A DNA stretch of 64,000 bases, from assembly GCA_021813325.1 (NCBI GenBank), contig JAKALA010000015.1, forward strand, positions 1-64,000, written 5' to 3'. How positions within the stretch are numbered: the stretch's first letter is position 1; every line of letters begins with the position of its first letter. A program made the position numbers and the translations under genes. The DNA comes from a bacterium. GTDB taxonomy: Bacteria > Verrucomicrobiota > Verrucomicrobiia > Limisphaerales > UBA11358. Shown here piece after piece: positions 1,844-55,637 of this stretch. The notes under the pieces were generated by a model, which made no database searches, was not told where the DNA came from, and saw only the letters and a list, made by a program, of their open reading frames with translations.

Positions 1844-4132
1844 ATGAACTTGTTCCCCCCGAAACTCATCGTGACCGCGATTCTGCTTGGCGGTCTTTCT
1901 GGCAATGTTTTTGGCGCCAAAGCGCCCGTGGATTATGCGAATCCGCTGGTCGGCACGGCTTCGTTGGATGATCCCAAGTTGCTGGGCAACGCCCCGCCGC
2001 CTGGCGAAGAAGCTTACACCGGTTTCACTTTTCCCGGCCCAACCTTGCCGCACCGTGACTGCATTCTCGGACCGATCAACAAAGATTTGACTGAGGCGGC
2101 GGGCAATCACGGCATCATTTTTCCCTACATTCATTCGCGCCGGACGATGCTGGGATTTTCCTCGCCCATGCCCGGTTTAACCATCATGCCAGTCATTGGC
2201 AACTGGACGGTGCCGCCGGATCGTTGTTACGCCTCGCCTTATGACAAACAATCCGAAAAAGCGTCGCCCGGTTATTACTCCGTATTTTTTCCCGACACGG
2301 GGATTCGAACCGAGCTCACCGCGACCGAACGCACGGGATACTACCGTTTCACTTTTCCGCAAACCGACCGTGGCACCGTGTTAATCGATCTTAGCGCCGG
2401 GGAAAACCACATTGAAATCGTCGATGACCATACCATTCGCGGACGCAGCCAGCGCGGGGGCCGCAACTTCGTGGCGGAATTTTCCAAGCCTTTCAAGTCG
2501 TTCGGCACTTTCTGCCAAAACCAGCCGCGCCTGGAAGGTGCCCGCGTCCGGCGCGACGACACCGTCGATGCCGGTTCATGTGCCATGTCGGGAAGTTATG
2601 CGGGCGTCTATTTGGAATTTGCCACCAAGGCCGGCGAGCAAATCACCGTGCGCATTGCCTCCTCCTGGTCATACGAAGCGGCCAAAGAACAGCTGCAAAA
2701 AGACACCGCCAGTTTTGATGAAGTGCATCAAGCCGCGCGGAATGCGTGGAGCGAAAAACTAAATCTCGTCCAGGTCAAGGGCGGCACGGAAAAACAGCGG
2801 ATGCTGTTCTATTCCACGCTCTACAATTCACTGCTCACGCCCCGGTTAATTTGGAAAAAAGGTTCACCTGTTCACAGACGCAATGGCGAATCCCAGATCG
2901 CCGACTACGACCGGTATAGCCCCATTGCGTTTTGGGACACCGGCCGCAATCAGATCATGCTGCTCACGTTGCTGGAACCCGACGTCACCACCAACATTCT
3001 GCGCACCCATCTCGAAATGGCCCGTGAATCCGGCTGGATGCACACTTCGTTTTACGGCGACCACGCGGTGTTGATGTATCTCGGCGATTGGGAGCGCGGC
3101 GTGCCCTTCGATTACGCCTCGGTTTACGAATATCTCCGCAAAAACGCCATGGATCCCGCCGGCCCGCGCGGTGATCTGGCCGAATATTTGAAAAACGGCT
3201 GGGTGCATGATGATTTTATGGAACATCCCAGTCCGCCGGAAGCCGGTGGCCATGCCGGTGTGGACAAGACGCTGGAATACAGTTGGGATGATCACGCGCT
3301 CGCCCTGTTCGCCAAAAAACTGGGCAAAGAAGACGATTACCAGATGTTCCTTGCCCGGGCGCACAACTATACGAATGTCTTCGATCCTTCTACCGGCTTC
3401 ATGCGCGGACGGCAAGCGGATGGCTCTTGGATTTCGCCTTACGACCCGTTTGAACCCTATTACAACTACATGTCCAAGGAGGCCAGCGGCTGGCAAAATT
3501 TCTGGCTCGTTCCTCACGACGTGCAAGGCTTGATCGACTTGGTTGGCGGCCGCGAGAAATTCATTCAGAAACTCGACACGTTTTTCAACACACCCTACAA
3601 CCCGAAAGGCATTGCCCGCGACGTCACCGGCATGATCGGGCTTTATTGCCAGGGCAACCAGCCGGATCAGCAAACCGCCTATTATTATGATTACGCCGGT
3701 CAGCCGTGGAAGACCCAAAAACTGACCCGCGAAATTCTCAAGCTGATGTATGGCAGCGATAAATTCAGCCTCGCCTACCCGGGCATGGATGATCAAGGCT
3801 CCACCTCGTCGTGGTATGTTTTCAGCGCCATGGGTTTTTATACCGTGGACCCGTCCACGCCGGATTACATCATCGGTTCACCGATTTTTGATGAAGTCAC
3901 CATTCACCTGGGCGGTGGCAAAGACCTGATCATTGAAGCGAAACACAACTCGGAAAAGAACTGCTACATCCAGTCAGCCACGCTCAATGGCAAACCCTGG
4001 AACAAACCCTGGTTCAGCCACGCCGATATTGCCAACGGCGGCAAATTCGTGTTCCAGATGGGAGCAAAACCCAATCCGAACTGGGGCAGCGCCCCCGAGG
4101 ATGCGCCGCCATCCATGTCCAAGCCGGATTAA
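1844..4132 (+). CDS. GH92 family alpha-mannosidase, secreted
   Basis: A 762-residue protein with an N-terminal signal peptide (MNLFPPKLIVTAILLGGLSG) followed by DYANPLVGT, the usual opening of GH92 enzymes. The central FWDTGRNQIMLL and the C-terminal DDQGSTSSWYVFSAMGFYTV and YIIGSPIFDEV blocks match the catalytic (alpha/alpha)6 domain of this family. GH92 enzymes are calcium-dependent exo-mannosidases that remove alpha-linked mannose from glycans. The frame could open at a TTG at 1838, but the ATG at 1844 gives a cleaner signal peptide. The gene stands alone and converges on recQ. The exact linkage specificity cannot be read from sequence. Confidence 0.93.
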   Translation: MNLFPPKLIVTAILLGGLSGNVFGAKAPVDYANPLVGTASLDDPKLLGNAPPPGEEAYTGFTFPGPTLPHRDCILGPINKDLTEAAGNHGIIFPYIHSRRTMLGFSSPMPGLTIMPVIGNWTVPPDRCYASPYDKQSEKASPGYYSVFFPDTGIRTELTATERTGYYRFTFPQTDRGTVLIDLSAGENHIEIVDDHTIRGRSQRGGRNFVAEFSKPFKSFGTFCQNQPRLEGARVRRDDTVDAGSCAMSGSYAGVYLEFATKAGEQITVRIASSWSYEAAKEQLQKDTASFDEVHQAARNAWSEKLNLVQVKGGTEKQRMLFYSTLYNSLLTPRLIWKKGSPVHRRNGESQIADYDRYSPIAFWDTGRNQIMLLTLLEPDVTTNILRTHLEMARESGWMHTSFYGDHAVLMYLGDWERGVPFDYASVYEYLRKNAMDPAGPRGDLAEYLKNGWVHDDFMEHPSPPEAGGHAGVDKTLEYSWDDHALALFAKKLGKEDDYQMFLARAHNYTNVFDPSTGFMRGRQADGSWISPYDPFEPYYNYMSKEASGWQNFWLVPHDVQGLIDLVGGREKFIQKLDTFFNTPYNPKGIARDVTGMIGLYCQGNQPDQQTAYYYDYAGQPWKTQKLTREILKLMYGSDKFSLAYPGMDDQGSTSSWYVFSAMGFYTVDPSTPDYIIGSPIFDEVTIHLGGGKDLIIEAKHNSEKNCYIQSATLNGKPWNKPWFSHADIANGGKFVFQMGAKPNPNWGSAPEDAPPSMSKPD

Positions 4133-4345
4133 ACTTAAAATCCGCCGTCGGAACGATCCGCGAAGCAACAAAACATCCGCGAAATAAATCAACGGGCACC
4201 CGGTTCGTCCCGCTCAAATGGTTTTCCCCTTGAACCAAAAATCGTGCTTTCAGGGGAATCCGTTTTCTTGGCGCGGGTTTTGCCGATTTAGCGATTGCCA
4301 CGGCGCCTTTCAAGTTGACCGCTCCGGCCAGGCCGGTAATTGATT

Positions 4346-6532
4346 TTACCGCCGGGCCTGCGCCGCCGCGCGGAACAGGCGGAGACGCCCATAGTCAATC
4401 CGGCCACCTAGCGCTTCAAAAACGGGGCCGAGCGACTCGCCTCCCGCGCGGCCAAAAGCGGACGCCACTTCCGAGATTTCCGGCAGGCTGAAAAACTGCT
4501 GCAAATCCACCGGCTCGCCCTGGGCAACGGCCTCGGCGAGATGGCCGTAAATGGTGTTGGTGGTCATGCCGCGTTCGCGGGCGATTTGTTCGACGGCCTG
4601 GCCGGCGCGAAACCGCCGCAATGTTTCCCGGGCGGAATCGCCCGGACGCTGGCGCGGCGGCGGTGCGGCGGCCGGGCTGGTGAAGGAATCGTCGGCAAAG
4701 ATTTGTCGCGGATGGGTCTGCAAATACGCGGCGATTTCGCCGAGAAAGAGGCCGCCAAATTCGCGCAGTTTCTTTTCGCCCACCCCGCTGATGCGGGAAA
4801 AATCGCGGTCGTTGGCCGGATAATCCCGCGCCATCTGCCGCAACGCCACATCGGAAAACACAATATAGGCCGGCACGTCGCGCTCGTCGGCCAACATTTT
4901 GCGCAGGGCGCGCAGCCGTTCAAACAAGGCTTCGTCGCAGGCGATTTCGCCGACGTGATGCGCCGGGGGTTCCGGGGCGACGGCCGGCTGGGTGAGCGTG
5001 ATTTTCCGGCGGTCCCTGAGAGCGCCGCTGCCTTCGGCGGTCAGTTCCAGGGTGCTGAACTTTTCGCTGGTCTGGCGCAGCAAACCGAGCCGCACGAGTT
5101 CGCGTCCGATTGCCGACCATTCCGCGCGACTGTGTTCCTTGCCGATGCCGTAGGTGGAAAGTTGAGTGTGATTCCACTTGCGGATTTTTTCCGTGTCGGC
5201 GCCGACGAGCACTTCCACCACATGATTCAGGCCGGCGCCAAAGCCATTTTTCTCGCGGATGCGGAAAACGCAGGAGAGAAACTTCTGCGCGGCCAGCGTG
5301 CCGTCAAACGTGGCGCGGGGCGCAAGGCAATTGTCGCACGCGCCGCAGTTGTCTCCGGCGAACGTCTCACCAAAATAGCGCAGCAGTTCCGTGCGCCGAC
5401 AGCCGGCGCATTCGGCGTAATGAACCATTTGCTGCAATTGTTCGCGGGCGATTTTCTGCTCGCGCGGATCCGGTTTTTCGTCAATGAACCGGGTTTGTTT
5501 GATGACATCGCCGGGGCTGAACAGCAGCACGCATTCACCCGGCAAGCCGTCGCGCCCGGCGCGGCCGGTTTCCTGATAATAACCCTCGATGTTTTTCGGC
5601 AGGTCATAATGCACGACAAAACGGACGTTCGGCTTGTTGATGCCCATGCCGAAGGCGATGGTGGCGCAGACCACGCGCACGTCATCGCGCAAAAAAAGTT
5701 CCTGATGCTCGCTGCGTTCCTTGGGCGTGAGGCCGGCGTGATAAGGCCGCGCCTTGATGCCATCCCCGGTGAGATTTGCGGCGACGCGTTCGGCGGTTTT
5801 GCGTGACTGGCAGTAAACGATGCCGCTCTCCCGCGGATGCTCGCGCAGGAAATGCAGCAGTTGATTGTAGGGTTTGTTTTTGGGAACGACGTGATACGCG
5901 AGGTTGGGCCGGTTGAAGCTGGCGACGTAGGCTTTCGGCTCGCGCAATTTCAAATGCGTGATGATGTCGGCGCGGACGCGCCCGGTGGCCGTGGCGGTGA
6001 GCGCCATGAACGGCGTTTGCGGAAACCGGTCGCGAAGCTGCGCGAGCTGGCGGTATTCGGGCCGGAAATCGTGGCCCCATTCGCTGATGCAATGCGCCTC
6101 GTCCACGGCGATGAGCCGGACGTTCCAGCGCGGCAAATCTGCGAGGAACCCGGACAGCATCAGCCGCTCCGGCGCGACGTAGAGCAATTTGAATTCGCCC
6201 TGATGCAATCCGCGCAGGCGGCTCCGCGCTTCGCCAGCGGCGAGCGAAGAATTTAGAAAGGTGGCCGGCACGCCGGCGGCTTGCAGCGCGTCCACCTGGT
6301 CCTTCATCAAGGCGATGAGCGGCGAAACCACCACCGTGAGGCCGTCGCCCGCCAGGGCCGGGAGTTGAAAACAAAGCGATTTGCCGCCGCCGGTGGGCAG
6401 CAGCGCGAAGACGTCCCTGCCGGCCAGCGAATCGCGGATGATCTCCTCTTGCAACGGACGAAATGACGCGAAGCCGAAGTGTTGCTTCAGCAGCGGGAGC
6501 AGATTTTGGGGCGCGGATTTCACCGCCGCCAA
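4346..6532 (-). CDS. recQ: ATP-dependent DNA helicase RecQ
   Basis: A 728-residue superfamily 2 3'-5' helicase acting in recombination and fork repair. Walker A TGGGKS is at residues 47-52 and the DEAH box with CISEWGHDFRPEY begins at 144. The second RecA lobe has FGMGINKPNVRFVVHYDLP followed by QETGRAGRDG. A four-Cys zinc site (CAGC...CGACDNC) around 376-403 opens the RQC region. An HRDC-like domain follows, then a C-terminal helix-turn-helix (GMTTNTIYGHLAEA). The predicted start is TTG at 6532, 16 residues before the first conserved helicase residues. A GTG three codons later is an alternative. It lies 63 bases downstream of carB on the same strand and may be cotranscribed. Confidence 0.95.
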   Translation of the reverse strand: MAAVKSAPQNLLPLLKQHFGFASFRPLQEEIIRDSLAGRDVFALLPTGGGKSLCFQLPALAGDGLTVVVSPLIALMKDQVDALQAAGVPATFLNSSLAAGEARSRLRGLHQGEFKLLYVAPERLMLSGFLADLPRWNVRLIAVDEAHCISEWGHDFRPEYRQLAQLRDRFPQTPFMALTATATGRVRADIITHLKLREPKAYVASFNRPNLAYHVVPKNKPYNQLLHFLREHPRESGIVYCQSRKTAERVAANLTGDGIKARPYHAGLTPKERSEHQELFLRDDVRVVCATIAFGMGINKPNVRFVVHYDLPKNIEGYYQETGRAGRDGLPGECVLLFSPGDVIKQTRFIDEKPDPREQKIAREQLQQMVHYAECAGCRRTELLRYFGETFAGDNCGACDNCLAPRATFDGTLAAQKFLSCVFRIREKNGFGAGLNHVVEVLVGADTEKIRKWNHTQLSTYGIGKEHSRAEWSAIGRELVRLGLLRQTSEKFSTLELTAEGSGALRDRRKITLTQPAVAPEPPAHHVGEIACDEALFERLRALRKMLADERDVPAYIVFSDVALRQMARDYPANDRDFSRISGVGEKKLREFGGLFLGEIAAYLQTHPRQIFADDSFTSPAAAPPPRQRPGDSARETLRRFRAGQAVEQIARERGMTTNTIYGHLAEAVAQGEPVDLQQFFSLPEISEVASAFGRAGGESLGPVFEALGGRIDYGRLRLFRAAAQARR

Positions 6533-6595
6533 AGTAGCGGCTTTCGGGAGCCAGCCGCCATCTAAAAAACTTTGCCCCGCCCCACTCGCCAGCGG

Positions 6596-8386
6596 TTAAT
6601 GATACTCCTGCACCGTCTTCACTTCGTAACCGGATTTCTTCAGCGCGGCAATGCCCAAGGCGGCGGCCCGGGCGCTTGAAAGCGTGGTCATGATCGGCGT
6701 GCCCGTGTAAACGGCGGTCGTGCGAATTTTAACCTCGTCCGCGCGCGGCACGGCGCCGCTGGGCGTGTTGATCACGAGTTGAATTTCCTTGTTCTTCAAC
6801 AAGTCCACGGCATTGGGACGGCCTTCCTGCAATTTGTGAATGCGTTCGACTTTCAACCCGGCTTTTTCCAAAACCGTGGCGGTGCCGCCGGTGGCGATCA
6901 GTTCAAAACCAAGAGCGGTATAGTTTCTGGCCACTTCGGCAACCTGATTCTTGTGCAGGTCGCTGACGCTGATGAACACTTTGCCCTTGAGCGGCAGCGC
7001 GGAGTTTGCGGCCATCTGCGACTTGGCGTAAGCCGTGCCGAGGTCGGCATCAAGCCCCATGACTTCACCGGTGGAACGCATTTCCGGCGAGAGCAAAATA
7101 TCCTGGCCATGAAATCGGTTGAACGGGAAAACCGATTCCTTCACCGCCCAATACTTCGGCCAGATTTCTTCGGTGAAACCGAGTTCTTTCAAAGTCTTTC
7201 CCGCCATCACTTTCGCGGCGAGCTTCGCCAGCGGCTGGCCAATGGCCTTGCTCACAAACGGCACGGTGCGCGACGCGCGCGGATTCACCTCCAGCACATA
7301 AACCACTTCGCCTTTCACCGCGTATTGCACGTTCATCAAGCCGACGACCTGCAACTCCCTCGCCATCGCGTGGGTGTATTCGCGGATGGTCTCGATGACT
7401 TTTGGGGAAAGCGTGTGGGGCGGAAGCACCATCGCCGCGTCGCCGGAATGCACGCCGGCAAATTCGATGTGTTCCAACATGCCGCCGATGACAATGGTCC
7501 CGCCGTTGGGCAGACCGACGTCAGCAATGCAGTCCACGTCCACTTCCGTGGCGTCTTCCAAGAACTTGTCCACCAGCACCGGACGCTCCGGCGAAGCCTC
7601 CACGGCAAACTTCATGTAATGCGAAAGTTCGCTGTCGGAATAAACGATCTGCATCGCCCGGCCACCCAGCACGAAGCTGGGACGAACAAGCACGGGATAG
7701 GTCAATTTTTTGGCGACGGCGAGCGCTTCCTCCGGATTGGTCGCCAACCCGTTCGGCGGCTGCGGAATGTTCAGCTTGTTCAGCATGGCCGCAAACATTT
7801 TGCGGTCTTCGGCGATTTCGATGCTCTGCGGCGAGGTGCCAATGATGTTCACCCCGTTCTTCTGCAAACCGAGCGCGAGGTTCAGGGGTGTCTGCCCGCC
7901 AAACTGCGCAATGGCGCCCCAGCATTTCTCGCGTTCGTAAATGTGCAGGACGTCTTCAAGGGTGAGCGGTTCGAAAAATAGTTTGTCGCTCGTGTCGTAG
8001 TCGGTGGAAACCGTTTCGGGATTCGAATTCACCATGATGGTTTCGAAGCCGTCTTCCTTGAGCGCGAACGCGGCGTGAACACAGCAATAATCAAATTCAA
8101 TCCCCTGGCCAATGCGGTTCGGGCCGCCGCCGAGAATCATTACCTTCCTGGCGGTGTTGCCTTTGACCTCATCATCGCCGCGGTCGTAGGTGGAATAATA
8201 ATACGGCGTGTAAGCCTCGAATTCCGCGGCGCAGGTGTCCACCAGCCGGTAGCTGGGAATCAGGTTCAATTTTTTGCGAAGAGCGCGAATTTTATCCTCG
8301 GTCTGGCCGACGAGATGGGCGATCTGGCGGTCGGAAAATCCGAGCGATTTGGCGCGGGCGAGTTTTTCAGCGTTCAGTGACGACAT
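6596..8386 (-). CDS. carB: Carbamoyl-phosphate synthase large subunit, C-terminal half (split CarB)
   Basis: This 596-residue protein aligns with roughly the second half of E. coli CarB (1073 residues). The N-terminus (LARAKSLGFSDRQIAHLVG) is the end of the oligomerisation domain, with RVDTCAAEF just after. The second ATP-grasp domain follows (ILGGGPNRIGQGIEFDYCC, VLEVNPRASRTVPFVSKA). The C-terminal MGS-like allosteric domain ends the protein. This half phosphorylates carbamate in the last step of carbamoyl phosphate synthesis for pyrimidines and arginine. The first ATP-grasp half is absent from the window: the upstream neighbour is a divergent outer-membrane gene. ATG start at 8386. Split carB genes are known in Methanocaldococcus and Aquifex, so a natural split is more likely than decay, since the frame is intact from ATG to stop. 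Confidence 0.92.
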   Translation of the reverse strand: MSSLNAEKLARAKSLGFSDRQIAHLVGQTEDKIRALRKKLNLIPSYRLVDTCAAEFEAYTPYYYSTYDRGDDEVKGNTARKVMILGGGPNRIGQGIEFDYCCVHAAFALKEDGFETIMVNSNPETVSTDYDTSDKLFFEPLTLEDVLHIYEREKCWGAIAQFGGQTPLNLALGLQKNGVNIIGTSPQSIEIAEDRKMFAAMLNKLNIPQPPNGLATNPEEALAVAKKLTYPVLVRPSFVLGGRAMQIVYSDSELSHYMKFAVEASPERPVLVDKFLEDATEVDVDCIADVGLPNGGTIVIGGMLEHIEFAGVHSGDAAMVLPPHTLSPKVIETIREYTHAMARELQVVGLMNVQYAVKGEVVYVLEVNPRASRTVPFVSKAIGQPLAKLAAKVMAGKTLKELGFTEEIWPKYWAVKESVFPFNRFHGQDILLSPEMRSTGEVMGLDADLGTAYAKSQMAANSALPLKGKVFISVSDLHKNQVAEVARNYTALGFELIATGGTATVLEKAGLKVERIHKLQEGRPNAVDLLKNKEIQLVINTPSGAVPRADEVKIRTTAVYTGTPIMTTLSSARAAALGIAALKKSGYEVKTVQEYH

Positions 8387-49102: not shown

Positions 49103-49813
49103 TTAGTAACCCGTCAGGCGGTCGGATTTCCATTGGCCATCAATTTGCTTTAAATCCAACCACAATGGTTGATCGGATTGGGGCAGACCGCTGATATAGA
49201 CGGTAAAATGCGCATCGTTTTCGGAAGTCATTTGGATGTTCAGTATTTGAATGCCGGACGCTTGACTGAGACCTTGGATTTCAGCATCGGCAATTTCGGC
49301 GTCGGTCTTGTCCTTCCAAGGTCCGGAGATTCTTCGTTCCAGTTCCGCAGGCGTAAGGCTCGCGCGGATGGCGTTCATATCGCCGTTTGAAACGGCCCAC
49401 AACATGGATTGCAAGGCAGCTTCCGGTGTGCCGTAGCCAGCCAGAGTCCACGATGACCTGGGCAGATTGACAAAGCGATTGCTGCCCGGAAACGATTGAA
49501 AGGATGGGAGTGCGGTTTGGGCCGCCAACTTTGTTTGCAACGCTTGAAGTTCACGATGCTGACCTTCGACTATGCCCCGCAGACGGTTGAGTTCATCAAG
49601 CTGACTATTCCTCGTCGCCTGAGCCGCCGCCGCGGACACAGTATTGGTTAAACGGTTGTTTTCCGCGGTCAACTCACCCAAACGACCGGCCTCAGCCGCT
49701 AATGCAAGATTTTCCGCCCGCATTTTTGCCTGGGCCTGGTATTGTTGCCCCAGCCAGACCAGCTCGATAGCCGCAACCAATATGGCCAAAATGTAGATCC
49801 AAGTTTTATTCAT
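49103..49813 (-). CDS. Membrane protein sharing its C-terminal domain with the adjacent sigma factor
   Basis: A 236-residue protein with an N-terminal transmembrane helix (5-22), a coiled-coil region (about 30-95, heavy in L, E, Q, A) and an extracytoplasmic domain (about 114-236). The last part, [20 protein letters not shown], aligns with [20 protein letters not shown] in the C-terminal domain of the sigma protein just upstream. Its ATG overlaps that gene's stop (ATGA at 49810-49813), so they are cotranscribed and probably coupled. No known family is recognised. Confidence 0.75.
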
Positions 49814-51213
49814 GGGGGAATCGGGAAATCACCAATATGCCAGCCATCGCTGGACCGTTGCAGGGGCAACCGGCCAAAGCCATCCTGCCCGTCATTGTAA
49901 ACGGTGATGACGACCTGATCCGGAGTCACGAATTGCTCGGATAAAATGCGCATACCGATCACATTGGTTTCGTGGCTGGCTTCCTGACTGATCTCGGCAT
50001 CAATTTCAGCCTCGGTTTTTCCAGCAAATTCCTTGGCGGCCGCCGCTTGAGCTGCCGGTCCTAATTGCGCCAGCACCAACTGGAGGTCATGGTGATTTTT
50101 CACGTTTTGCATCATCCAACTGAGTGACTGCAACGCCGCTTCGGGCGTGGCATTTCCAGCGGTGGCCCAAGCCGATTTCGGAAAATAGTTCGTCGTGACC
50201 GGCGCGCGCAGGGCCATGGCCGCCGCTGAATTTTTCCGGGCGGTGAAGTCGGCGTTTAATTTTGCCAGTTCATTCCGCTGCATGCCCACTTCGCCGCGCA
50301 ATTTCAGCAATTCCAAATATTGATCCGGCGAAAGGGTTGGCCCGGCAGACGCTGGCCGGCTGGCCAACCTTTGATTCACTGCCTGTAGTCTCACCGCCTG
50401 ATCAGCTTGCGCTTGCAATTGGCGATGTTGATCGCGCAGGCTGGCCCAAACCCGCTGCTGTATTACCATCGGCGTCAACAGGCCCGCAACGACCAACACC
50501 CCCGCCGCGACCGTTTGAAGTTTCGTCATAGTCATTGCCTTTATAAAAGTCAGGGTGGTGCCGGTGTCAGCCCCCGCCATCGAGGCGCTGGCCAGCCCTG
50601 ACACCAGTCCGGCGGGAGCGTTTTGAACGGCATGGGCGGAAAGCACCGAACCCAGCGCCGTGACCGTCCCCAAACCTCGTCTGACCAGGAGGAGGCGGAG
50701 TTTCTCCACCGCCCGATCGACCCGCTTGCGGGCCGTGTCTTCGCTCAAGCCCAGCGCCTGGCCAATGTCCGCGAGTTGACGATTTTCAAAATATCGCAGC
50801 AAAATGACCTCACGATCGGATGCCTTGAGTTCATGCATGACGCGGTCCAGCATCGGCCGGAGTTTTTCCCAATCAAAATTAGGCGCGGCGGGCTGCAATA
50901 ATTCATTCATGAGAAAGGCCTCCTGCTCGTGCGCCTGACGGCGTCGCTCGGTGCGCACCGCTTTGGCGGCGGCAAAATGAGTGCCGGTGTAAAGCCAGCC
51001 GGTCAGCGCCGGACGCCGCGAGAGGATCGCCGCTTTGCGCGCCAGGTCCGTGAAAACCGCTTGGGCAACGTCATGGGCCAGATGCACGTCGCCGTTGACC
51101 TGACGCAAGGCTGCGGAATACACGAGATTCAGGTGCCGCCGCACCAATTCGGCGAAGGCCTCCTCGGAATGAGTCTCGGCATAAGCCCGAAGCAATTCGC
51201 CATCAGCTGTCAT
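49810..51213 (-). CDS. ECF sigma factor fused to a transmembrane anchor and C-terminal domain
   Basis: A 467-residue protein from the ATG at 51213; a TTG at 51252 is a longer option. Residues 1-85 are the sigma-70 region 2 ([34 protein letters not shown]). Residues 115-175 are region 4 with the [24 protein letters not shown] transmembrane segment lies at about 233-250 ([18 protein letters not shown]). A coiled coil follows, then a C-terminal domain (341-467) homologous to that of the next gene. ECF sigma factors with C-terminal membrane domains are known in Planctomycetes and Verrucomicrobia. The signal and target genes are unknown. Confidence 0.85.
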
Positions 51214-51658
51214 ATTCACAGGATAGCACCCGGCCGAAGCAAAATCGGACAAAAATAATGAGGGGAGAGTTTAGCCGGACAATCCAGTTGGTTGGGCAGA
51301 AAGCAGCCACTGCTCCGAAACGGAAACCGGCACGCCCCGCCTTGCAGGGCACTGGACCCAATACATTTTTCCACCTGATGCTTTAAAAGCACATGAATCC
51401 TGAATCGAATCTGAAGCTCATTCTGTTCTGTTTTGAGAGAAAAGATGCTGGAATGGTGGCGGCGACGCCTCGTCGCGATCGCCATTATTCGATCCTTTCG
51501 GCAACGAAGGCGTCGCCGCCAACTTAAAACCATCTTTGCTACAGAGCAATTCTGTTCCAGGAAATAAATGAGCTTCCAGAGCGGCTCCTCAAAGGTGCGG
51601 GAAAAAGTTCGCCATCCCCATTCGGCTATAGTTTCAAGCGTCAAATTCCGGTCTCCAA
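51214..51658. other. Intergenic region with a long inverted repeat
   Basis: No gene is supported in these 445 bases between the sigma-factor start and the sulfatase stop. They contain an inverted repeat at 51457-51521 and probably the sigma operon promoter. Near 51610-51632 the text CGCCATCCCCATTCGGCTATAG resembles GGCATCCCCATCCGGCCACAG at 40569-40589, after the palindromic element. Confidence 0.5.
51457..51521. repeat. Inverted repeat, 14-bp perfect arms
   Basis: TGGCGGCGACGCCT (51457-51470) pairs with AGGCGTCGCCGCCA (51508-51521) around a 37-base loop. No T run follows. It may be a dispersed palindromic repeat. Confidence 0.75.
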
Positions 51659-53177: not shown

Positions 53178-54680
53178 TTAATTCTTCCAAACCCAGTCGC
53201 CGGCCTGCCAATCCACGCGGTCCTGTTTGCCCAGCACCACCTTGCCGCCATCGTCCTTTTCGTTCGCGCCGACCGAATAAAGAATGAATTTCCCGTCGTC
53301 AGTGCGCTGATAATGCAACGGCTGGCCGTTGATGAGGTCATGAGGCAGCTTGTCAACAAACTGCGGCGACAGTTCATCGAGTGACTTCGGATAATCGCCT
53401 TTTGCGAGGTGATACCGCTCCAGCGCACAGGCCACCCGAGCCAGATTAATTTGCGTCTGAATCATCGCGAAGCGCAGCACACTTTTGCTGACCGACGGAA
53501 ACAACTGCAAAGCTTGGAGGGTGAAAGGCCAGTAACGATTCAACAGTTCCTTGCAGGCTTGCTCACTTTGATTTAAGGCCGTCACGGACACCGTATGGTT
53601 CGTCAGATCCACCAACGGAATCACGATCTGCTGATACATCTGGGCAAAGGCCAGTTCATTGCGATAGAAATAAGCGCTGGGAACCCACCACAGGCTGTTG
53701 GTTTCCGTGCCCATCGGGCCGGTGGAAACACTTTGGCGGGTAATCCGCAGTTTTTCAAAAGCGTTGATGGCGCAGCTCCGTTCACCGCGCATGGAGGTTT
53801 GAAAATCCGCCAAATAATCCGACCGGGCGAGCAGCGCTTCCAGTTCAGCCAACTGCGCATCGTTCCATTGATGCTGCACCAAACCTTCGTATATGGGCTG
53901 GATCGCAATGGCCGTCATCGCGAGGCGAACCAGATGTGAGATTAGAAACGGCTGATTCCGCGACGTATCAATGAGGCGCAATGCCAGCTTCTCATCTTCC
54001 AGCGCCGCCTGTCCCTGCCCGGCTTGCAATTCAGCCAGCACCCGCAGTTGTAAAAACTGCGCGCTCCGCTTTTGCACGGCCAGCCAGGGCAAAAACGAGC
54101 CAACCTGCTCAAGCCCGTCTTGATAATCCAAAGGCATTCGAGCATAAGGTCGTTCGCTCGCCGCCCGGAGTTCCTCCAGCACGGGGTTGAACACACTCAG
54201 TGCCAGCAAAACGTCTTTGGCGGGCGTCTGCGGTTCCGGCGTCATGGGAAAGCCATTCGTCTGTCCGGCAGGTGATTTGCTGTAATTTCTAAAATACTGC
54301 TGCCACTCGGTCAGATCCGTCAGACGGCCACGCTGCCAGTTTCTACCGTGCTTCGGCCAGAGTTCAGAATCCCCACGATAAATATCAAAATCAATCGGGG
54401 TTCGGGCGGAGGATTCGTTTTGGACAGCTTTCAAGGCCCCGGCCACAATGGGTGCTGCGAAAAAATTTTCGGTATCCCGCACCTCGGGTGGGGTGCAGGC
54501 CGACATATCGAGTTTTTCGCCACGAGCCGCCGAAACCTGTTGATAATTCAGCCAATCACGGCGGGCACGCCAGTTGATCTCGGTCACGATAAAACCAGCC
54601 ACCGTGACCAGACATGCCAGTCCGATCAAGCTCCAACGCAATATTTTCCAACGCAATTTGTGCTCAGGATTCGGTTTCAT
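53178..54680 (-). CDS. Membrane-anchored protein of the ECF operon, unknown function
   Basis: A 500-residue protein with an N-terminal transmembrane helix (about 14-34) and a long, helical extracytoplasmic domain. The C-terminus (YHLAKGDYPKSLDELSPQFV, then LHYQRTDDGKFILYSVGANE) resembles the C-terminal part of GspG-type pseudopilin domains as found in large Planctomycetes/Verrucomicrobia proteins. No other motif is recognised. Its ATG overlaps the stop of the 137-residue gene upstream (ATGA), placing it third in a sigma operon. The sulfatase gene lies 61 bases downstream of its stop on the same strand. Confidence 0.7.
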   Translation of the reverse strand: MKPNPEHKLRWKILRWSLIGLACLVTVAGFIVTEINWRARRDWLNYQQVSAARGEKLDMSACTPPEVRDTENFFAAPIVAGALKAVQNESSARTPIDFDIYRGDSELWPKHGRNWQRGRLTDLTEWQQYFRNYSKSPAGQTNGFPMTPEPQTPAKDVLLALSVFNPVLEELRAASERPYARMPLDYQDGLEQVGSFLPWLAVQKRSAQFLQLRVLAELQAGQGQAALEDEKLALRLIDTSRNQPFLISHLVRLAMTAIAIQPIYEGLVQHQWNDAQLAELEALLARSDYLADFQTSMRGERSCAINAFEKLRITRQSVSTGPMGTETNSLWWVPSAYFYRNELAFAQMYQQIVIPLVDLTNHTVSVTALNQSEQACKELLNRYWPFTLQALQLFPSVSKSVLRFAMIQTQINLARVACALERYHLAKGDYPKSLDELSPQFVDKLPHDLINGQPLHYQRTDDGKFILYSVGANEKDDGGKVVLGKQDRVDWQAGDWVWKN

Positions 54681-55090
54681 AGGATAAAAGTATTCATAAC
54701 TTCGGTGCGTGGACGGGGAACCATTCGATGAGCCGGCTCCGCCTCAACCGACGTCGTTCGGTCGGCAAACAGTTCGCGCATGATGCGTTGCTGTTCCTGA
54801 AAGCTCAACATCACCGGCGCCGGCGCGCCGACCGGCAGCGTCGATTTATCACGTTGCGCCACGTTCAACACGATTAAAACCATCCAGGCCGCGGAAAGCG
54901 CAGCCCACATGCGGCGGCTGGGAAAAATCAATTCGCGCCAGAGCAATGCCGGCAACGCGAACAGTGGGGCCCAAACCGAAGGCCGGGGTGCTGCTCGGCG
55001 CCCGCTGGCGCAAACGGACCGGCGGATTTCATCCAGCTTCGGCTCGATCGCGCGATGCCGGTTCAATAAAACTTCACGCGGCGTTTTCAT
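54677..55090 (-). CDS. Small membrane protein, possible anti-sigma partner
   Basis: A 137-residue protein with one transmembrane segment (MWAALSAAWMVLIVLNVA, about 61-78) flanked by a basic cytoplasmic N-terminus (MKTPREVLLNRHRAIEPKLD) and an outward tail. Its start overlaps the ECF sigma gene stop by 17 bases. Position, membrane topology and size suit an anti-sigma factor, but no zinc (HxxxCxxC) anti-sigma signature is visible, so the role is inferred from context only. Confidence 0.65.
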   Translation of the reverse strand: MKTPREVLLNRHRAIEPKLDEIRRSVCASGRRAAPRPSVWAPLFALPALLWRELIFPSRRMWAALSAAWMVLIVLNVAQRDKSTLPVGAPAPVMLSFQEQQRIMRELFADRTTSVEAEPAHRMVPRPRTEVMNTFIL

Positions 55091-55637
55091 TTCCAGCCTC
55101 CAATAATTTTCGCAGCGATTTTTTTGCGTAATGCAAACGGGATTTTACCGTGCCGGTTTGCGTGCCGCTGATCCGGGCAATTTCATCAAGCGGGAACTCT
55201 TCGATGAAATGCAGCAGCAGCACTGATCGCTGTGGCGCCGGGAGTCGCTCCAGCAGTTCCATGAACCGCGCTTCCGACTCCTGACGGATGAGCAACTCAT
55301 CCGGCCCGTCCTCCAGGTCATCTGCCGCTTCGGGAATTTCTTCCACCAGCACTTCTTGGCGGCGACGCCAGTGTTGCAGCACCTTCTGATGCGCAATGCT
55401 GAACAACCAGCCGCCAAATCTGGCCTCATCGCGCAAGGCGCCCACGTGTTTAACCGCCGCAATGAAAGTCTCCTGAACCAAATCCAGACTGAGCTGTTCC
55501 TGGCGGACGAGTTCAAAAACATAAACATATAGCGGCAATTGATAGCGCCGGAACAATGTTTCCCAAGCCGCCGGATCCCCGGCGCGCGCTTGAGCCACAG
55601 GCAGTTGTTCGATATCGGCCACTTCCGGCATTGTCAT
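55074..55637 (-). CDS. ECF-family RNA polymerase sigma factor
   Basis: A 187-residue sigma-70 factor. Region 2 runs LFRRYQLPLYVYVFELVRQE with LDLVQETFIAAVKHVGAL and the -10 contact RFGGWLFSIAHQKVLQHWRR. Region 4 is LPAPQRSVLLLHFIEEFPLD followed by EIARISGTQTGTVKSRLHYA. The ATG at 55637 is chosen; the frame continues upstream to 55670 without a better start. It heads a three-gene operon with overlapping neighbours. Confidence 0.92.
   Translation of the reverse strand: MTMPEVADIEQLPVAQARAGDPAAWETLFRRYQLPLYVYVFELVRQEQLSLDLVQETFIAAVKHVGALRDEARFGGWLFSIAHQKVLQHWRRRQEVLVEEIPEAADDLEDGPDELLIRQESEARFMELLERLPAPQRSVLLLHFIEEFPLDEIARISGTQTGTVKSRLHYAKKSLRKLLEAGNENAA

Follow-up and report, generated by a model that had tools for sequence, protein, structure and literature searches.

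A membrane-tethered ECF sigma factor and its homologous sigma-less membrane partner in Verrucomicrobiota, with a candidate autoregulated promoter

The ECF sigma factor IutY of Pseudomonas putida is a sigma/anti-sigma hybrid of group ECF243 that acts in siderophore cell-surface signalling and requires proteolysis (PMC8999054). In Actinobacteria, ECF52 (SCO4117), ECF53 and ECF48 consist of an ECF core that is fused to a membrane helix and an outside part (PMC5826349, PMC8999054). For ECF41, a TGTC-type −35 and a single detectable target have been described (PMC3426412), and SigG1 of the SigG1-RsfG pair is co-transcribed with a partner (PMC7730460). The control of ECF sigma factors that lack a recognisable anti-sigma gene is an open question (PMC8103513). 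Here, we analysed a gene pair in a 64,000-nucleotide stretch of verrucomicrobial DNA (the window) that encodes an ECF sigma factor with its own membrane anchor and a shorter membrane protein.

Both genes lie on the reverse strand, surrounded by ftsK-like and sulfatase genes. The gene of the tethered sigma factor (49810..51213, ATG at 51213) encodes 467 amino acids and that of the partner (49103..49813) 236 amino acids. A sequence-only reading of this DNA had described a four-base overlap of the two genes and a transmembrane helix within the sigma factor, and both descriptions are correct: the common bases are the ATGA at 49810..49813, and the helix spans residues 233-251 (50461..50517), with a hydropathy of 1.94 over 19 residues. 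Residues 1-180 (50674..51213) form a sigma2-sigma4 core that is recognised by Pfam Sigma70_r2/r4, and the structure model of the core matches E. coli sigmaE (region 2, 4lup) with a Z score of 13.0. With 66 bits, the protein scores above the TIGR02937 cut-off of 42.9. It is an ECF sigma factor that possesses regions 2 and 4 and lacks regions 1 and 3. Between the core and the membrane lies a conserved cytoplasmic linker (residues 181-228, 50530..50673) with a motif around A-P-A-G-L, in which P200 and L203 are invariant among 37 aligned relatives. The membrane helix is followed by a two-part coiled coil (residues 249-335, 50209..50469; model helices H249-289 and H296-335) and by a C-terminal domain (residues 344-467, 49813..50184) that is modelled as H-H-H-H-E-E-E-E. 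The model of the sigma factor has low confidence in the linker and the membrane region. Neither a FecR-type anti-sigma extension nor a zinc-finger anti-sigma domain was matched by Pfam in the pair up to an E value of 1. Elsewhere in the window, a second, soluble ECF-like sigma factor of 187 amino acids is encoded at 55074-55637 (−) together with an overlapping gene for a small one-helix protein. With its neighbours at 54677-55090 and 53178-54680 (−), it shows the usual sigma/anti-sigma-type layout, in contrast to the pair studied here.

The partner begins with a transmembrane helix (residues 4-22, 49748..49804, hydropathy 2.07), which is followed by a two-part coiled coil (residues 23-100, 49514..49747; model helices H3-65 and H69-100) and a C-terminal domain (residues 113-236, 49106..49477). 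Its model has a mean pLDDT of 88.6, with values mostly above 90 in the C-terminal domain, which consists of four helices and then four strands. The best matches of this domain among solved structures are NTF2-like proteins, ketosteroid isomerase and the CaMKII hub, with Z scores up to 10.3. Nearly all of the 50 best matches are NTF2-like or related cystatin-like structures (Z 8.3-10.3), and the NTF2-like ectodomain of the anti-sigma factor RsgI9 (7sjy) is among the matches. A Pfam search of the outside domains gave no family over its cut-off; below the cut-off there were weak hints of Rv0361_Cterm (E 0.002) and DUF4878 (E 0.005). The C-terminal domain of the sigma factor has the identical predicted order of elements, so that unrelated folds, which would have spoken against the sequence-only reading, did not occur. 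Both domains are predicted to belong to the NTF2-like superfamily (cystatin/NTF2-like fold), the sigma domain by its element order and its homology to the partner domain.

The relationship between the two proteins extends further than a repeated C-terminal domain. In BLASTP, sigma residues 229-442 align with partner residues 1-209 at 33% identity (61 bits, E 3e-15). Shuffling the partner 500 times gave at most 25 bits against the sigma factor, so the match is not due to chance. Homology runs from the membrane helix through the coiled coil into most of the outside domain. The partner is thus a sigma factor without the sigma core and linker, and the earlier claim of a duplicated outside domain is right as to homology and too narrow as to its extent.

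By sequence comparison, the sigma factor is a member of a large paralogous family found in Limisphaerales and in Opitutaceae-type Verrucomicrobiota. The source genome encodes at least six further proteins with the same core and layout and with different C-terminal domains. Strong matches, often several in tandem, are present in 37 of 49 genomes from the GTDB family, which all belong to a single genus. A helix follows the core in 92 of 96 long ECF proteins from the sampled regions and in 91 of 92 from the named-contig set; these samples were drawn with family queries, and the proportions say nothing about ECF sigma factors at large. Its members retain the core, linker, membrane helix and coiled coil, and the outside domain is swapped between NTF2-like, TonB_C, ExbD-like, secretin, SLBB and pilin-like types. 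Pfam identified TonB_C (E down to 3e-21), Secretin (8e-7), SLBB (5e-8) and ExbD (9e-6) in the outside domains of relatives. All four are envelope domains, which supports an outside position of the C terminus. Tandem arrays of tethered sigma genes occur at loci L073, L074, L075, L076, L203 and L204, with up to about ten per contig (G295 C102). At L042, the gene of a one-helix protein lies between those of two sigma-like proteins (3468-5201 and 6146-7900) that are of another kind and have several membrane helices behind the core. Among open-licence papers we found nothing on membrane-tethered ECF sigma factors in Verrucomicrobiota, and the family is apparently little-described.

The sequence-only reading had seen no target promoter. 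A strong candidate is present directly upstream of the sigma gene, with a −35-like half (TGTCCGATTT, 51242..51251, −) and a −10-like half (GGGTGCTAT, 51223..51231, −) that ends 9 nt before the ATG. In the family, a bipartite element of the form TTGTnCGnTTT, N10 and a second half is located directly before the start codons, and the second half varies with the sigma subfamily (GGGTGCTAT, GGTTATTTA, GGCGATATG, GGCATTTATA). Of 88 sigma genes in the genus, 64 have the first half upstream, compared to 3.4% of random stretches and 3.3% of control genes; the counts for the two further sets are 24 of 31 and 50 of 77, with a background of 2-3%. Over the three sets, this amounts to 65-77% of the sigma genes. 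Among 128 sigma factors, similarity of the two half-sites correlates with sigma identity (Spearman 0.445 and 0.366), compared to 0.181 for the spacer. At 70% sigma identity or more, the half-sites match at 0.90 and 0.88 and the spacer at 0.51. Shared descent adds to all three correlations, and the spacer serves as the control for it. Coding sequence was considered as an explanation of the element and rejected: the spacing between it and the sigma core varies by amounts not divisible by three, and it is therefore read as non-coding. We regard the element as a candidate autoregulated promoter of the sigma/partner operon. Since its second half lies 9 bases before the ATG, a transcript would start at or just before the start codon. 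Elements this close to the ATG, as at 51214-51231 of the window, would give leaderless or nearly leaderless messages. In the source genome, the strict pattern occurs twice without a mismatch and once with two mismatches, and all three sites precede tethered sigma genes. A search of this genome for a regulon beyond the sigma genes gave none at 0-2 mismatches, and at three mismatches the hits equalled those of a reversed-pattern control. The same type of element also precedes three stand-alone partner genes (L073, L085, L120). At L085, the stand-alone membrane coiled-coil protein (5537-6409) takes the place where relatives syntenically have a tethered sigma factor.

To examine how far the pairing is conserved, as the sequence-only reading had proposed, we looked for partners next to other tethered sigma genes. 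Within about 2.6 kb downstream of the sigma gene, a separate match to a partner was found for 27 of 90 tethered sigma factors of the Opitutaceae-type family, and for 16 of the 77 with enough sequence in the named-contig set. About 20-30% of the sampled sigma genes are thus followed by a sigma-less partner. The pair recurs in other families of the class, but most relatives of the sigma factor are without a partner, which indicates that the basic switch does not require one. In most pairs the genes overlap or are a few tens of bases apart at most. Some pairs, including that of the window, carry the same NTF2-like domain on both proteins. In many others the NTF2-like domain is confined to the partner, and the sigma factor bears a TonB_C, ExbD-like, TPR or different domain; some partners of about 100 amino acids consist of the membrane helix and coiled coil alone. 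The homology of the outside domains therefore holds for the window pair but is not general. Helix and coiled coil are common to all partners; given the non-homologous outside domains and the partners that lack one, the possible contact that recurs is the helix/coiled coil and not the NTF2-like domain.

A tree of 49 domains divides the Opitutaceae-type family into two sigma-domain and two partner clades with matching sub-clades. These separate, mirrored clades argue that the pairing there is old and that its members diverged side by side. For one partner pair, dN/dS is about 0.28. In the tree, the window partner is closer to stand-alone partners from two further genomes than to the sigma factor beside it, with modest support, and no close relative of it was found in its own genus. 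Conservation therefore applies to this kind of pair and not to this locus. Between L234 and L285, domain types are exchanged: the sigma domain of L234 resembles the partner domain of L285 (E 1e-18), and the partner domain of L234 resembles the sigma domain of L285 (E 1e-35). This may be a coincidence, given the frequent shuffling in the family. A second tethered sigma factor in the source genome (L041; G000 C77, 428-2125) is followed by a membrane coiled-coil partner (2122-3099) with a 4-bp overlap. This partner is of another domain type, and the sigma and partner domains barely match (E 0.04). At L112 and L113, the gene of a soluble sigma factor comes first, next that of a membrane coiled-coil protein carrying a pilin-like domain, and last that of an NTF2-like membrane coiled-coil protein; at L113 the genes overlap. 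By their sequences, these operons are probably a split version of the same sigma/tether set. Fused and split versions match in their outside domains (E 6e-13), but at profile level the tether of the fused form and the membrane protein of the split form are linked too weakly (hhalign E 0.0034, probability 9.6%) to establish a common origin.

On this basis, we see roughly even chances that the pair is a one-protein transmembrane sigma switch with a sigma-less co-sensor, that is, a ToxR/ToxS-like arrangement built from a tethered ECF sigma factor. The sigma factor would reside in the inner membrane in a latent state, with its core inside and its C-terminal domain outside. Sigma factor and partner would stand side by side through their membrane helices and matching coiled coils, and we infer that the NTF2-like domains of both could form one outside sensing head. 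The partner might set the threshold, either by shielding the sigma factor from proteolysis or by keeping it latent, as ToxS does for ToxR. A putative signal acting on the head would loosen the complex, and proteolysis would then free the sigma factor, as in the P. putida hybrid IutY. A site-2 protease homologue is encoded in the source genome, as it is in all control genomes. The freed sigma factor would transcribe its own operon, giving more sensor and partner, and possibly further genes as targets. More tentatively, and with somewhat less than even chances, the family could represent a class-wide signalling system of Verrucomicrobiota: ECF sigma factors held at the membrane and fitted with interchangeable envelope sensor domains would drive their own operons, most of them leaderless, and in a fifth to a third of cases would be tuned by a sigma-less copy of their membrane-sensor half that serves as a hetero-oligomeric co-receptor.

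Other readings of the pair were weighed against this switch. It seems unlikely that the sigma factor is never released and acts membrane-bound, as ToxR and CadC do, with pairing to the partner altering its shape or its contact to RNA polymerase. The single-pass layout together with a partner that has no DNA-binding half does resemble ToxR/ToxS, as is generally known; no conserved protease site was identified, and the linker from core to membrane is conserved. On the other hand, IutY, the characterised ECF sigma factor of this layout, depends on proteolysis for its activation (PMC8999054). A role of the partner as a plain membrane anti-sigma factor, bound to the sigma core, would fit the position of its gene right after the sigma gene and the overlap of the two, and the split operon also has a membrane protein in the anti-sigma position. 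However, only about three residues precede the partner helix, which leaves nothing cytoplasmic to bind the sigma core, and Pfam found no anti-sigma domain. Lacking a cytoplasmic part, the partner is very improbable as an anti-sigma factor of this type.

We also consider it quite improbable that the partner arose as a by-product when a sigma gene of this fast-shuffling family was partially duplicated, and that it serves no function itself. Partners are present only sporadically in the genus, that of the window has no close relative there, and outside domains shuffle freely, all of which would be expected of such a by-product. Against this stand the old, mirrored clades in the Opitutaceae-type genomes, the purifying selection on one partner pair and the overlapping or near-touching genes of most pairs. 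In addition, the window domains are only about one third identical, so that the copy is not recent.

The family combines a control half fused to the sigma factor with an exchangeable sensor domain, a readable candidate promoter and a recurring sigma-less partner. The domain swaps amount to a natural set of sensors, and each of these features can be tested with a reporter in a heterologous host. The recurrence of such pairs across the class, together with a shared promoter-like element, points to a little-known sensing system. A similar arrangement outside the sigma factors is that of ToxR/ToxS and VtrA/VtrC, in which a tethered transcription protein with an outside domain has a co-transcribed membrane partner without a DNA-binding part. 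However, ToxR and VtrA are winged-helix activators and not sigma factors, and their partners are not known to be copies of half of the tethered protein. RsgI9 is likewise a sigma-control protein whose NTF2-like domain, recognised by structure match, lies outside the membrane, but it is an anti-sigma factor of a SigI-type system and not a tethered sigma factor.

Among ECF sigma factors, IutY shares with the window protein the combination of ECF core, membrane helix and outside domain in one polypeptide (PMC8999054). IutY carries an anti-sigma-type extension, whereas the window pair has no FecR-type domain by Pfam and has a sigma-less partner instead; its neighbours are the ftsK-like and sulfatase genes and not a TonB-dependent receptor gene, so it does not fall into ECF243. 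In ECF52, ECF53 and ECF48 a zinc-finger (anti-sigma) domain precedes the membrane, and their descriptions include no homologous partner; in the window sigma factor Pfam found no zinc-finger between core and membrane, which sets it apart from these groups. ECF41 and ECF56, which have a SnoaL-like extension (e.g. SigJ and SigG1-RsfG), resemble it in their NTF2-like C-terminal domain. By their descriptions, however, this domain folds onto the sigma core inside the cell, whereas in the window sigma factor a membrane helix and a coiled coil of about 90 residues separate the core from the domain, which places it outside these groups as well. RsfG, in turn, lacks any Pfam domain, and its description does not present it as a copy of the SigG1 extension. 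Membrane-bound ECF sigma factors and intracellular NTF2-like extensions are thus already known; what distinguishes the window pair is a sigma-less copy of the sigma factor's own membrane-sensor half, which is absent from the descriptions compared here.
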